DNA from: Candidatus Micrarchaeum acidiphilum ARMAN-2
GTDB taxonomy: Archaea > Micrarchaeota > Micrarchaeia > Micrarchaeales > Micrarchaeaceae
Direction of reading: 5' to 3'
Assembly (NCBI GenBank): GCA_009387755.1
Contig: GG697241.1
Location: 248,001-312,000, forward strand
DNA: 64,000 bases
Positions 30,615 through 39,249 of the stretch are shown in pieces. The translations under genes were made by a program, and so were the position numbers. Each line of letters starts with the position of its first letter. The first letter of the stretch is position 1. Below the pieces are notes generated by a model. The model was not told where the DNA came from and did no database searches. It saw only the letters and a list, made by a program, of their open reading frames with translations.

Positions 30615-31271
30615 TCATGCGCTTTCGGTGACACCGTTCTTCGGGCAGTGCGCTTTTATAGGACAAGCGCTACATTTTGGTACTGCGCCGCACACCTCCT
30701 TGCCATGGGCCTTCAATACATATGCGATGTTCTTCCAGTACTGTTTGCTTATCTTTGCCTCAAGGTCCTTTTCTATCGAATCTGCATTCTTTGCCTTGCT
30801 CAGCCCTATCCTGTAAGAAAGCTTTATGACCCAGGTGTCAACAGGTATGCCCTCGACTTTGCCATACGCGTTTATGAGTATGGTATTCGCGGTTTTTCTT
30901 CCAATGCCCGGTAGCTCGACGAGGTCTTCCATCCTGTCCGGAACTTTGCCCCTGTATTTTTCGTCAATTTCCTTGCACGCGCCGATTATGTTTGCAACCT
31001 TGTTCTTTGCATAGAGCACGCCCCCGACATAGCCCATCAGCTCAGCGGGCTTGGCATCTGCATAGTCCTTTGCGGTCTTGTACTTTCCAAAGAGTCTGGG
31101 CGTAATTGCATTCACCTTAGTGTCCTTTGTCTGGGCTGACAGTATCGCGGCAACCAACAGCTCAATAGGGGTGCTGAAGTTCAAATAGTAATGAACGTCC
31201 TTGTAGTGCTCTTCGAGCATTCCAACTACCGAATTGGCCTTTTTGGCATCCAATTCAACGAAAGCCGTCAA
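30615..31271 (-). CDS. nth: Endonuclease III-like DNA glycosylase, paralogue 1
   Basis: Bifunctional glycosylase/AP lyase for oxidised pyrimidines. 218 residues. HhH motif LPGIGRKTANTILINAYG carries the lyase Lys; the catalytic Asp is in IPVDTWVIKLSYRIG, with Trp where His is common. The C-terminal iron-sulfur loop reads C-GAVPK-C-SA-C-PIKAH-C, with five rather than six residues in the first gap. Its stop region is close to endoQ, and its start overlaps the isomerase gene by ATGA. A second Nth lies at 32476 on the opposite strand. Confidence 0.92.
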   Translation of the reverse strand: MTAFVELDAKKANSVVGMLEEHYKDVHYYLNFSTPIELLVAAILSAQTKDTKVNAITPRLFGKYKTAKDYADAKPAELMGYVGGVLYAKNKVANIIGACKEIDEKYRGKVPDRMEDLVELPGIGRKTANTILINAYGKVEGIPVDTWVIKLSYRIGLSKAKNADSIEKDLEAKISKQYWKNIAYVLKAHGKEVCGAVPKCSACPIKAHCPKNGVTESA

Positions 31272-32475: not shown

Positions 32476-33141
32476 ATGCACGAACCAAAACCTGCAAAGC
32501 GCTTTGAAGCCGAAGTCCTTTCAAGGCTTAAGGCTAGGTACGGGGATTCGATGAAAAGCGCGCTCGAATACTCAAACCCATGGGAAATGCTTGTTGCAAC
32601 CATGCTTTCTGCTCAGTCTACAGACCGGCAGGTCAACAAGGTAACCAGGGAACTGTTCCGCCGCTATAACACACCAAACCAATTCGCAAGACTTAAGCCG
32701 CAGACACTGCAGCGTCACATAAACTCCCTAGGCCTTTACCGAAACAAGTCCAAGAACATAATTGCGTCCGCGAAAATGATAATGCACCTGTACGGCGGAA
32801 ACGTTCCTGACCGAATGGACGAACTGGTAAAACTGCCGGGGGTGGGCAGGAAAACCGCCAATGTTGTGCTCTCAGAAGCCTTTTCCGCAAGCGAGGGCAT
32901 CGCAATAGACACGCACTGCATTACGGTCGCAAACCGTCTGGGGCTGGCAAATTCCAAGGACCCAGAAAAGATTGAAAGAAAGTTAATGGAAAAATTTCCA
33001 AAGAAGGAGTGGCGCAACGTTTCCAATCTGCTCATAGCGCTGGGCAGGGACACGTGCACTGCCAGAATAAAACACTGCGAAAGGTGCGTGCTCAATGACA
33101 TATGCCCGTCCAGCAGCGTAAAAAAGGTGGTCAAACGATAG
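32476..33141 (+). CDS. nth: Endonuclease III, paralogue 2
   Basis: 221 residues, classical EndoIII. HhH motif LPGVGRKTANVVLSEAF carries the lyase Lys, followed by the catalytic Asp in IAIDTHCITVANRLG and a full iron-sulfur loop C-X6-C-X2-C-X5-C (CTARIKHC..C..C). Closer to canonical bacterial/archaeal Nth than the 30615 copy. Overlaps the downstream dph6 by 40 bases. Two Nth paralogues within 2 kb on opposite strands suggest different lesion ranges. Confidence 0.94.
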   Translation: MHEPKPAKRFEAEVLSRLKARYGDSMKSALEYSNPWEMLVATMLSAQSTDRQVNKVTRELFRRYNTPNQFARLKPQTLQRHINSLGLYRNKSKNIIASAKMIMHLYGGNVPDRMDELVKLPGVGRKTANVVLSEAFSASEGIAIDTHCITVANRLGLANSKDPEKIERKLMEKFPKKEWRNVSNLLIALGRDTCTARIKHCERCVLNDICPSSSVKKVVKR

Positions 33142-35754: not shown

Positions 35755-36117
35755 TCAATCTCCTCCAGCAACTACGTTCTCGAGGCCTCCTCTGAGTCCA
35801 TAAACTTCAAGCCCATGTCTCCTGTTCAGAAATTCGGAGAGAAAGCCCGATGTATTCCCATGGTAGCATATAAGCACTGAGTTCTCGAGGTCCTTGAGTT
35901 CATCTTTATCCGAATATATTATTGCTTCAGGATCGAGCTTCTTTATGCTCTCACTTTCAATGTTGAGTATCTCAGAGACTTCCTTAACCGGCTCGTTTCC
36001 AAGCCATACAAATTTGGTGTTCTTGCTCTTTACAAGCTTTATAGCATCCTCTACATCCAAATCGTATTTCGGATTTCTCTTAAACCTTTTTTCAAAAGAA
36101 ACTTCATCTTCTTTCAT
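35755..36117 (-). CDS. Rhodanese-like domain protein
   Basis: 120 residues, single rhodanese fold. DLDVEDAIKLVKSKNTKFVWLG starts the domain; the active loop is CYHGNTSGF with the cysteine in place (C-x-x-G-x-x), followed by YGLRGGLENV at the C-terminus. Predicted sulfurtransferase or persulfide carrier. Partner unknown; it stands alone with its own upstream AT-rich region at 36120-36180. Confidence 0.85.
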   Translation of the reverse strand: MKEDEVSFEKRFKRNPKYDLDVEDAIKLVKSKNTKFVWLGNEPVKEVSEILNIESESIKKLDPEAIIYSDKDELKDLENSVLICYHGNTSGFLSEFLNRRHGLEVYGLRGGLENVVAGGD

Positions 36118-36254: not shown

Positions 36255-39011
36255 TCATCTCTGTCCGTATTTGGCCAGAAATGCAAGGTATACACTCAGT
36301 GCGGATTCTGGTGCCGAAGGCTTTATGGTCTTCAATACGTTTTCTATGTCTTCAATGCCTATGACTGACTCCTTAGACGTCTTAATGTGCGATTCTAAGG
36401 CGTGCATCTTGACCTCCCTGCAGACGTTTGCTATGTCTGCTCCGGTAAATCCCTTGGTCTCTGCGCCAAGTTTCTCGAAATCTATTGACTTGTCGTAAGG
36501 TGCGTTCTTTATGTACTCCTTGAAGAGCAAAGCCCTCTGGTGCGCATCCGGGGGCTTTATGAAGACTATCTTGTCAAACCTCCCCGGCCTGAGCACCGCC
36601 TCGTCCAGCGCTTCGGGTCTGTTCGTTGCCCCGACCACTATTATCTGCGACATCCTTTTTATCCCGTCCATGTCCTTCAGGAGTTCGGTAGTCACCTCTA
36701 TATCCTTCTGCGCCGAATTCCTCCTCTTCGGGACAATTCCGTCCACTTCGTCTATGAATATTATTGCAGGCTTGTTCTCATATGCCCTGTAAAATATGTT
36801 TTTAATCACGGTCGCGGCGCTTTCGGAATCGCTCTGCTGCATTATCACGTTGTCTATCTCAAGCATAGTCACTCCGGTCAGCTCGTTTCCTATGGCCCTC
36901 ATGAGCATGGTCTTGCCGGTTCCGGGCGGTCCGAAGAGCAAAAGTCCGTTTATCGTCTTTATATCATACTTTTCTATAAGTTCCGGGTGCAGAAGCGGCA
37001 CTTCTATCGCGTCTATTATGGCCTTCTTCGCGTCGTCCAGCCCTATGACATTTTTAAGCATGATCTTATCAGATGCGCTCTCCTGTACCCTCTGCCCCTT
37101 TTCTCTTCCAAAGTCTATCCTGAATGTGTTGTATGCCTCCAACTGGGCAAGTGACGTCGACGGCTTCGTTGCACTTATAACATTCATTATGTCGCTCTGC
37201 GTTATCTCCAGAACTTTGTGCTCGCTGAGCGCCTCTTGTGCAACAGTCTGTCCTACTGCTTCGCACACTGCCTTTATGTCGGCTCCGGAATACCTGTCGC
37301 TGGCCTCTGCGATCTTATCAAAGTCGATGTCGTCTGAAATCGGAAATTTTTTGAGATATATCTTGAATATCGCCTTCCTCGCATTAAGGTCTGGCAATGG
37401 CATGTATATGCTTTTGTCAAACCTCCCCGGCCTAAGTATTGCAGGATCCAACATGTTCGGCACATTGGTTGCCCCGACTATAATTACCCCATCCATCTTT
37501 TGGAATCCGTCCATTTCGACCAGAAGCTGGGACAGCGCATGCCTGTGTATTTCGTCTATGCCTTCGTAGTTCCTGTTTGTTGCTATCGAGTCTATTTCAT
37601 CTATGAACAGCACGCACGGGGCATGCTTCTTCGCTATGCTGAATATGTCTGATATCAGTTTCTCGGACTCGCCAGGATACGAAGATATTAGGTTTGTCGC
37701 CTTTACATAATAGAAGCCCGTGTGTATCTCATTCGCCAGCGCCCTCATTATCATGGTCTTGCCAGTTCCGGGCAGGCCGAAGAAAAGTATGCCTTTGGCC
37801 GGTTTTATGTTGTATGCCCTGGATATGCCGACGTTCTCGAGTGGCGATATCACGGCCTCCCTAAGCTCCTTCTTTATCGCGTCATAATCTCCAATGTCGT
37901 CGAACTTTTCCGAAACGTTGCCCGCCTGCAGATCCTCAAAGGCTTCCCCGAACTTCATCCTTATATCCTGTTTCTTTACCTCCATGGCCTTGACAACATC
38001 TATGTTATAAAACTCCAATAATCCGACAAAAATTACCACAATTATAAAGCTTACGAACGGCGCCACGTAATTGATCGGATAGAATTTCAGTCCGGTTCCA
38101 AGCCCAACATAGATTACCGGATAGCACACGCCTATCAGGCTAGCCCTTGTGCCTTTGAATTTTGATCTCGTGTTAAGGGCCATGTACTCTATCGCGAACG
38201 CCACTGCTATAAACGCCGCTATCTGTATCAGGTAATAAAGCTGCAGATAAAGCGCATTTACCAGGAAGCCCGATACAACATCTATCTCTCCTGCGCTTTG
38301 AATGCTGGCAAAATTCGAGAATGCAGCAGAACTCTGGTTAACAATATTAGAGAAATGAAGCTGCGGCTTGTTCATAACAAGAAATTCGGATATGTTGCCT
38401 ATCGGCAGGCCTATGCGCACCCCGGTCCCGTTATACAGTATATATGAGGAGTTTTGTACTCCGAAAACGCCAGAAACCGCCACTATCCCGATTATTGCTA
38501 TTGTCGTTATTATTGCCGACCTCTTAAATCCGCTTACGAGCACAGCAAGCACCAGCACCGGTATTTCAAGCACCAGCCCTACAACTGAAAATGCGAGAAA
38601 GAACATAGTGTACCCGAAAACGATTGTCCTGTAGTGCATGTATCCGTAGATTAGCGACACGCTTATTACGAAAAGGAAAATCCACGCAACATACGAAATC
38701 TGGTATATCAGAGCCGGAAGAGCCACAATCATAAAGACTATGAGGCCCAGGAATGGATGGTAAAGTGTTATCACAAAAAGCAGTATAAGTATGAGTGCCG
38801 CTATTACCAACGGATAATATGGGAATCCTGCCACGAAGCTTACAAACATCAAGGCTACAAGCAAAGAGTCTATGAAGTATTTGTTAGTCCTTACCTTTAT
38901 CAGTATATCCTTGAGCCTGTACACTAGAATGGGGAACTTGCGCCTTTTCCTGATAAGCTCCCGGGTTATATTCTTGCCGGCCGGCCTTGCCGGCCTATCC
39001 CCATCTTGCAT
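36255..39011 (-). CDS. Membrane-embedded double-AAA ATPase (Cdc48-like)
   Basis: About 918 residues. Residues 45-335 hold roughly eight to ten hydrophobic helices with a soluble loop at about 185-245, presumably extracytoplasmic. Two AAA+ modules follow. D1 has Walker A GLPGTGKT (412-419), Walker B LFIDEID (468-474) and RPGRFDK. D2 has Walker A GPPGTGKT (694-701), Walker B IFIDEVD (751-757) and RPGRFDK. Both are Cdc48/VCP-like, but the usual Cdc48 N-domain is replaced by the membrane part. No protease domain follows. A plausible role is extraction or remodelling of membrane proteins. ATG 39011 chosen over TTG 39023. Confidence 0.88.
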   Translation of the reverse strand: MQDGDRPARPAGKNITRELIRKRRKFPILVYRLKDILIKVRTNKYFIDSLLVALMFVSFVAGFPYYPLVIAALILILLFVITLYHPFLGLIVFMIVALPALIYQISYVAWIFLFVISVSLIYGYMHYRTIVFGYTMFFLAFSVVGLVLEIPVLVLAVLVSGFKRSAIITTIAIIGIVAVSGVFGVQNSSYILYNGTGVRIGLPIGNISEFLVMNKPQLHFSNIVNQSSAAFSNFASIQSAGEIDVVSGFLVNALYLQLYYLIQIAAFIAVAFAIEYMALNTRSKFKGTRASLIGVCYPVIYVGLGTGLKFYPINYVAPFVSFIIVVIFVGLLEFYNIDVVKAMEVKKQDIRMKFGEAFEDLQAGNVSEKFDDIGDYDAIKKELREAVISPLENVGISRAYNIKPAKGILFFGLPGTGKTMIMRALANEIHTGFYYVKATNLISSYPGESEKLISDIFSIAKKHAPCVLFIDEIDSIATNRNYEGIDEIHRHALSQLLVEMDGFQKMDGVIIVGATNVPNMLDPAILRPGRFDKSIYMPLPDLNARKAIFKIYLKKFPISDDIDFDKIAEASDRYSGADIKAVCEAVGQTVAQEALSEHKVLEITQSDIMNVISATKPSTSLAQLEAYNTFRIDFGREKGQRVQESASDKIMLKNVIGLDDAKKAIIDAIEVPLLHPELIEKYDIKTINGLLLFGPPGTGKTMLMRAIGNELTGVTMLEIDNVIMQQSDSESAATVIKNIFYRAYENKPAIIFIDEVDGIVPKRRNSAQKDIEVTTELLKDMDGIKRMSQIIVVGATNRPEALDEAVLRPGRFDKIVFIKPPDAHQRALLFKEYIKNAPYDKSIDFEKLGAETKGFTGADIANVCREVKMHALESHIKTSKESVIGIEDIENVLKTIKPSAPESALSVYLAFLAKYGQR

Positions 39012-39120
39012 TTGAATCAGCAAAATTTTTGTAAGCTTATATTGAAAATAATCTAATTTATACCTTTATATAAACTAGTGCAGTGCGCAGGCCGTCGAGC
39101 ATGCAGTATTTAAGAATTAA

Positions 39121-39148: not shown

Positions 39149-39249
39149 CCCGTTGTAGCTCAATGGCAGAGCGGCCGGCTGTAGTTTGCTGACAATAAAA
39201 GTCTCATTGAGATACCGGCAGGTTGGGCGTTCGACTCGCCCCAACGGGA
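39149..39249 (+). tRNA. tRNA-Tyr(GTA) with a 29-nt intron
   Basis: Acceptor CCCGTTG/CAACGGG (C1-G72 as expected of archaeal tRNA-Tyr), anticodon stem GCCGG/CCGGC, loop CTGTAG then the insert, then A38. T-stem TGGGC/GCCCC-type pairing around TTCGACT, discriminator A. The insert of 29 nt (39185-39213) is at the canonical 37/38 site. Confidence 0.92.
39185..39213 (+). other. Intron of tRNA-Tyr (canonical position 37/38)
   Basis: Twenty-nine bases starting TTTGCTGACAAT; can form a short CAAT/ATTG stem. Boundaries inferred from the cloverleaf. Confidence 0.8.

Follow-up and report, generated by a model that had tools for sequence, protein, structure and literature searches.

Msp1/ATAD1 and Bcs1 are protease-free, membrane-anchored AAA proteins that combine a single ring with one membrane helix, Bcs1 having its own N-domain, and FtsH and the mitochondrial m-AAA and i-AAA proteases pair a membrane-anchored AAA ring and its aromatic pore loop with one or two membrane passes and an M41 protease domain. 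Archaea have no FtsH, and how they clear faulty proteins from their membranes is poorly understood; the main answer so far has been LonB, a membrane-anchored archaeal AAA protease that PMC9263693 describes as having its own S16 protease and a membrane segment within the AAA+ module. Archaeal Cdc48/VAT (p97 family) carries tandem AAA modules and a double-psi-barrel N-domain (CDC48_N and CDC48_2), and according to a census of Cdc48-type proteins that included 235 archaeal species, prokaryotes generally have one type (PMC5070193). The same source describes the plant Spaf-like proteins (SPATA5L1) of core eudicots as eukaryotic Cdc48-family members with a double AAA ring and a C-terminal membrane segment.

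Here, we analyzed a gene in a stretch of 64,000 nucleotides (the window; positions 248001-312000 of contig C8, in a genome of 1.01 Mb, 8 contigs, and 96.6% completeness), which a first-pass annotation had read as a Cdc48-like double AAA ATPase fused to a large membrane domain. The gene is an open frame on the minus strand, 36255-39023 (TTG start) or 36255-39011 (ATG), with no internal stops, and its 918-aa product has two Pfam AAA matches (whole-protein E 1.4e-74). The gene and the N-terminal part of its product are laid out as follows:

36255..39011, minus strand: complete coding sequence (918 aa and the stop codon); alternative in-frame TTG start at 39023
38877..39011, minus strand: residues 1-45, basic N-terminal tail (K/R about 9 on average), predicted cytosolic
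38010..38876, minus strand: residues 46-334, polytopic membrane domain with 8 or 10 predicted passes (AlphaFold, charge pattern, family and fold searches)
38238..38462, minus strand: residues 184-258, long loop, predicted extracellular (AlphaFold and charge pattern)
37914..38009, minus strand: residues 335-366, conserved linker, K.D..FGEAFEDL within the order of the window genome (alignment)

The fusion was borne out as one intact ORF: the identical single-ORF layout recurs across many genomes, by which a frameshift or fusion artefact was rejected, and third-position GC is similar along the gene (0.53, 0.60, and 0.62). Codon differences from the nearest congener (97% protein identity), synonymous and non-synonymous respectively, were 70 and 17 for the membrane domain, 85 and 4 for the first AAA module (D1), and 66 and 10 for the second (D2); since synonymous differences prevail in each part, all three look to be under purifying selection.

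Compared with Cdc48/VAT, the protein shares the tandem AAA modules and a tail helix after them, and is 36-39% identical to the Cdc48 of the same genome, but it has a membrane domain and no CDC48_N or CDC48_2, the HbYX tail is absent, the aromatic grip is confined to D1, and the modules form a branch of their own. It resembles FtsH and the m-AAA and i-AAA proteases in its membrane-anchored ring and aromatic pore loop, but has two rings, 8-10 predicted passes, and no M41 domain, and its modules are not sister to E. coli FtsH. LonB, likewise an archaeal membrane-anchored AAA+ machine, is a separate gene, neither Msp1/ATAD1 nor Bcs1 is among the family matches listed, and the membrane segment of the double-ring Spaf-like proteins lies at the opposite end. 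The protein is a clear variant of membrane-anchored AAA machines, undescribed in the open-access literature searched (full-text search; titles and abstracts), where we found no functional data for any member of the family.

With the membrane domain alone as the query, we found it in 55 of 60 close relatives (38/39 of the good genomes among them) and, across Candidatus Micrarchaeota, in 236 of 295 genomes sampled (86/96 of those well assembled); the membrane AAA protein is near-universal in this phylum, whose genomes are about 1 Mb. Scanning named genomes with the linker motif returned 80 loci, the titles of which give Candidatus Micrarchaeota or its members (Micrarchaeum, Micrarchaeaceae, and Mancarchaeum), with a few bins labelled Marsarchaeota. 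Two of these are in complete genomes, Micrarchaeum sp. A_DKE (NZ_CP060530) and ARM-1 (AP024486), whose homologues are 56% and 45% identical to the 918-aa protein, and full-length members with two AAA modules were read in many families of the same class. One Micrarchaeota genome holds two full-length copies about 28 kb apart (G012:C5:40283-42931 and 70511-73228; L082 and L061).

The search across archaea that the first-pass annotation had suggested found the architecture in Candidatus Micrarchaeota and several families of a second phylum, where the search matched 22 of 293 genomes and the locus was read in 19 of the 22. Families f43 and f133 combine the membrane domain with two AAA modules, f43 members having in addition either a tail rich in proline or an apparently extracellular segment; in f99 the second module has degenerate Walker A and B motifs (GPPGCGKAY, LVTDID), and in f103, f118, f119, and f123 a single module is visible. 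A match in f97 (G595), with no AAA module nearby, is probably due to chance. A broader profile, applied to 399 genomes (mostly near-complete archaea outside Micrarchaeota), matched convincingly in Micrarchaeota and f43 only, and weak matches beyond both phyla resembled membrane pyrophosphatase (two) and a pilus-type protein and look unrelated. One second-phylum locus (L291, G608), its second module bearing degenerate Walker A and B, appears intermediate between two-ring and one-ring members. In three others (L232, L245, and L246) the membrane domain is preceded by large additional segments that look extracellular and, by eye, rich in beta structure; these segments matched no family in this analysis and may serve in substrate sensing or recruitment.

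The reading that we favor over the others, at even odds, is a membrane-anchored AAA unfoldase that forms hexamers and has no built-in protease; D1 would pull substrates to the cytosol and other machines would degrade them. The helical N-domain would anchor the ring in the cytoplasmic membrane and present or admit substrates, and the membrane-proximal D1 ring would grip them by its aromatic pore loop and draw them into the cytosol. D2 would bind and probably hydrolyze ATP and, lacking a canonical grip, likely stabilize or coordinate the hexamer, and released chains would refold or be degraded by separate machines (Cdc48 with the 20S proteasome, or LonB). We infer the hexamer, the topology, the threading direction, the membrane-protein substrates, and the hand-off. 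That it belongs to a hitherto unrecognized family of membrane-embedded extractases in at least two phyla, uniting a new membrane fold with an AAA pair duplicated independently of Cdc48, is a broader proposal that we advance tentatively, at somewhat short of even odds; if it holds, the family would do in archaea what FtsH- or ERAD-type extraction does elsewhere, with unfolding separated from proteolysis. What we observed directly, namely the sequence architecture and its conservation, the intact ATPase motifs, the pore-loop asymmetry, the gene inventory, and the lack of an operon partner, is weighed below.

For the N-terminal domain, structure prediction with AlphaFold (41 homologues) gave a confident all-helical, polytopic model (mean pLDDT 87.4, pTM 0.83), in agreement with the multi-helix membrane domain claimed for the first 335 residues and predicted here at about 46-334. 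The external loop claimed at about 60 residues is indeed predicted outside, but its length is about 75 aa (184-258); it is the sole long polar loop of the domain. The positive-inside charge pattern places this loop outside and the AAA part inside: conserved basic clusters, all predicted cytosolic, lie in the N-tail, around residues 128 and 164, and at 281-286. The pattern is compatible with ten passes or with eight and a re-entrant segment, nine would place the AAA part outside, and AlphaFold draws residues 106-139 as a single helix, so the exact count is 8 or 10. This predicted topology, in which the rings face the cytosol and a single long loop is exposed on the exterior, would suit extraction, as would the conservation and apparent purifying selection of the domain and the extracellular-looking segments ahead of it in some members from the second phylum.

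The membrane domain belongs to no known family or fold. Residues 1-345 have no family match in Pfam, the membrane domains of 25 diverse members gave no Pfam and no credible NCBIfam match, a domain search of the kind by which the first-pass annotation could have been refuted, and the AlphaFold model found no fold relative, the best E being 3.7 in the PDB and 0.37 (TM 0.27) among viral models. That no known fold hints at substrate entry counts against extraction, and the domain might just as well form a channel or serve to anchor a single particular client. A Bcs1-like or secretion-like translocase, with the domain as a conduit and the AAA rings driving specific proteins across or into the membrane, would account for a conserved multi-helix domain whose size far exceeds the needs of an anchor and some of whose residues (including Y-Q and a Gly) are invariant in both phyla, and for the apparently extracellular extra segments in the second phylum; we nevertheless consider it unlikely, as neither Bcs1_N nor a secretion family is among the N-domain matches listed, the D1 pore aromatic is of the polypeptide-threading type, and no client gene is linked.

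The extraction reading turns next on the two AAA modules, with features as follows:

37092..37907, minus strand: residues 369-640, AAA module D1, including its lid and tail helix (Pfam AAA)
37755..37778, minus strand: D1 Walker A, GLPGTGKT (motif, conserved)
37671..37685, minus strand: D1 pore loop 1, SSYPG, aromatic Y445 (alignment)
37596..37613, minus strand: D1 Walker B region, VLFIDE (motif, conserved)
36258..37079, minus strand: residues 645-918, AAA module D2 (Pfam AAA)
36909..36932, minus strand: D2 Walker A, GPPGTGKT (motif, conserved)
36813..36848, minus strand: D2 pore segment VIMQQSDSESAA, no aromatic residues (alignment)
36258..36272, minus strand: C-terminus KYGQR, conserved as YGxR, not HbYX (alignment)

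Both modules are complete, as had been claimed: D1 and D2 each retain an intact Walker A, Walker B, sensor 1, and arginine-finger region (RPGRFD), and orthologues conserve them. Their pore loops differ. The canonical D1 position holds Tyr or Phe in 42 of 47 order-level sequences (SAYPGES type), QWYGES or a similar sequence predominates in class-level relatives, and KWYGES is found in the second phylum. The D2 segment, already noted in the first-pass annotation for its missing aromatic, is without one in 40/47 order-level sequences (the other seven have a nearby Tyr or Phe), reads RGYEG in class-level relatives, with Tyr in a non-canonical context, and SALAG in the double-ring members of the second phylum. 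Several relatives have lost D2 or carry a degenerate version of it, and in these the membrane domain and D1 stay paired. D1 is probably the working ring, since nearly all members have its aromatic pore loop and D2, besides being lost or decayed in those relatives, has no canonical aromatic; the suggestion of unequal roles for the two rings gains support from this comparison. The intact ATPase motifs in both rings, the D1 aromatic with its W-Y-G form in the second phylum, and the retention of D1 where D2 is lost would all favor extraction, against which stand the five order-level sequences without the D1 aromatic. Two class-level relatives (L135 and L136) have intein-like insertions inside D1 at functionally critical places, one just before Walker B (...HN|CILFFDEID) and one at pore loop 1 (...HN|SEKNVAEIF).

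The same asymmetry bears on an NSF- or Vps4-like remodeller that dismantles membrane protein complexes but neither fully extracts nor degrades their proteins. NSF, too, is described as having D1 as its working ring and a D2 thought to serve hexamerization (PMC5070193), and a D2 without grip that relatives can dispense with would match; the conservation of D2 ATPase motifs in Micrarchaeota, unlike a purely structural ring, and the absence of a linked adaptor or filament gene at the locus make this reading, too, improbable.

To place the modules among known AAA families, a maximum-likelihood tree of 74 AAA modules was built, including archaeal Cdc48 D1 and D2, PAN, and E. coli FtsH. D1 and D2 of the membrane-AAA family form one branch (support 100/97), apart from Cdc48 D1, Cdc48 D2, PAN, and FtsH, and within it the D1s of both phyla group together (100/99), as do the D2s (100/89). 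A tandem duplication inside the family, before its two lineages split and independent of the Cdc48 duplication, with D2 lost later in the single-ring members, is the simplest reading; it is favored and not proven, as AU tests leave four alternatives unrejected (p 0.16-0.25), among them the Cdc48 pairing of D1 with D1 (p 0.245) and D2 with D2 (p 0.175).

These AU results, and the Cdc48/p97 identity of the best solved relatives of both modules, are what a true Cdc48 paralogue, its N-domain swapped for a membrane domain and its D1-D2 pair kept, would have on its side. Besides the tree, however, the family models disagree with it: against NCBIfam TIGR01243 (CDC48) the 918-aa protein scores 437.9 bits, under the cut-off of 802.65 (the genome's own Cdc48 scores 1041), and the modules align crosswise, D1 best to the D2 part of the model and D2 best to its D1 part. 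We judge a paralogue to be quite unlikely. The NCBIfam PAN models gave 404-431 bits over two stretches, under their cut-off of 500, PAN also having a single AAA module where this protein has two, and neither CDC48_N nor CDC48_2 was found in residues 1-345. An FtsH-like feature is present, i.e., a predicted N-terminal membrane anchor followed by an aromatic-pore AAA module, and the claim that no protease part accompanies it agrees with the matches listed for the protein, where Pfam includes no M41 zinc protease domain and Pfam and NCBIfam include no protease domain save the AAA part of FtsH models. Of the Cdc48-like label, the two tandem AAA modules stand and a separate-family origin is probable; by most features tested the protein is not a Cdc48. 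It probably works like an unfoldase, to which its motifs conform.

Gene inventories bear on where extracted substrates would go. Both a standard Cdc48 (with CDC48_N and CDC48_2, ending SMYR) and a proteasome, the pair that the first-pass annotation had proposed looking for, are encoded in the window genome, 20S subunits being found in 41/41 genomes. FtsH is absent as claimed: the M41 domain was found in none of the 41 relatives, the window genome included, and among controls matched in bacteria only. PAN over its cut-off was found in 0/6 Micrarchaeota genomes tested and in 6/8 other archaea. The window genome also has a Lon frame of LonB size (672 aa), so the membrane-AAA protein seems not to be the only membrane AAA machine; that LonB probably supplies a membrane-anchored AAA protease counts against extraction, in favor of which are the lack of M41 and the near-universal retention of the gene despite genomes of about 1 Mb. 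The neighborhood (69 loci) holds nothing pointing to proteostasis, which also weighs against extraction, and no conserved operon partner, the commonest neighbor being a convergent gene (31/69), which fits a stand-alone machine.

The first proposal of extraction for a soluble proteasome is weakened, as far as direct feeding goes, by the C-terminus. It reads YGQR and is not HbYX, a motif described as pivotal for the docking of PAN (PMC4192671), whereas the genome's own Cdc48 has such a tail and Micrarchaeota Cdc48 proteins end MYR or MFV; the sole HbYX-like end among 47 order-level sequences is in one cut by a contig end. A membrane cap that binds 20S by its D2 side and delivers membrane proteins directly into it is thus very unlikely, even with 20S subunits throughout and PAN missing from the Micrarchaeota tested.

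The near-universal presence of a protease-free membrane AAA protein in genomes of about 1 Mb, with homologues in A_DKE, which is co-cultured, and in ARM-1, makes the question of membrane-protein removal in FtsH-less archaea directly testable. The family is also a natural experiment on two-ring AAA motors, in which two active rings, a degenerate second ring, and a single ring share one membrane domain.

Some further observations concern the genome and the window. PADLOC matches to IetA and TRIP13 come from the AAA modules, with no supporting context, and an anti-phage role was rejected. Two further single-ring AAA proteins are encoded in the window genome (L086 on C5 and L087 on C2), one with TPR repeats and the other small, which branch together, far from Cdc48 and FtsH. 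A 120-aa ORF without a Pfam match (35755-36117) adjoins the membrane-AAA gene, and just upstream of the gene lies a tRNA gene with an apparent intron (39149-39249; Rfam 55 bits, no call by ARAGORN). Two endonuclease III-like paralogues, named by eye and falling in one BLAST cluster, lie about 1.2 kb apart at 30615-31271 and 32476-33141.
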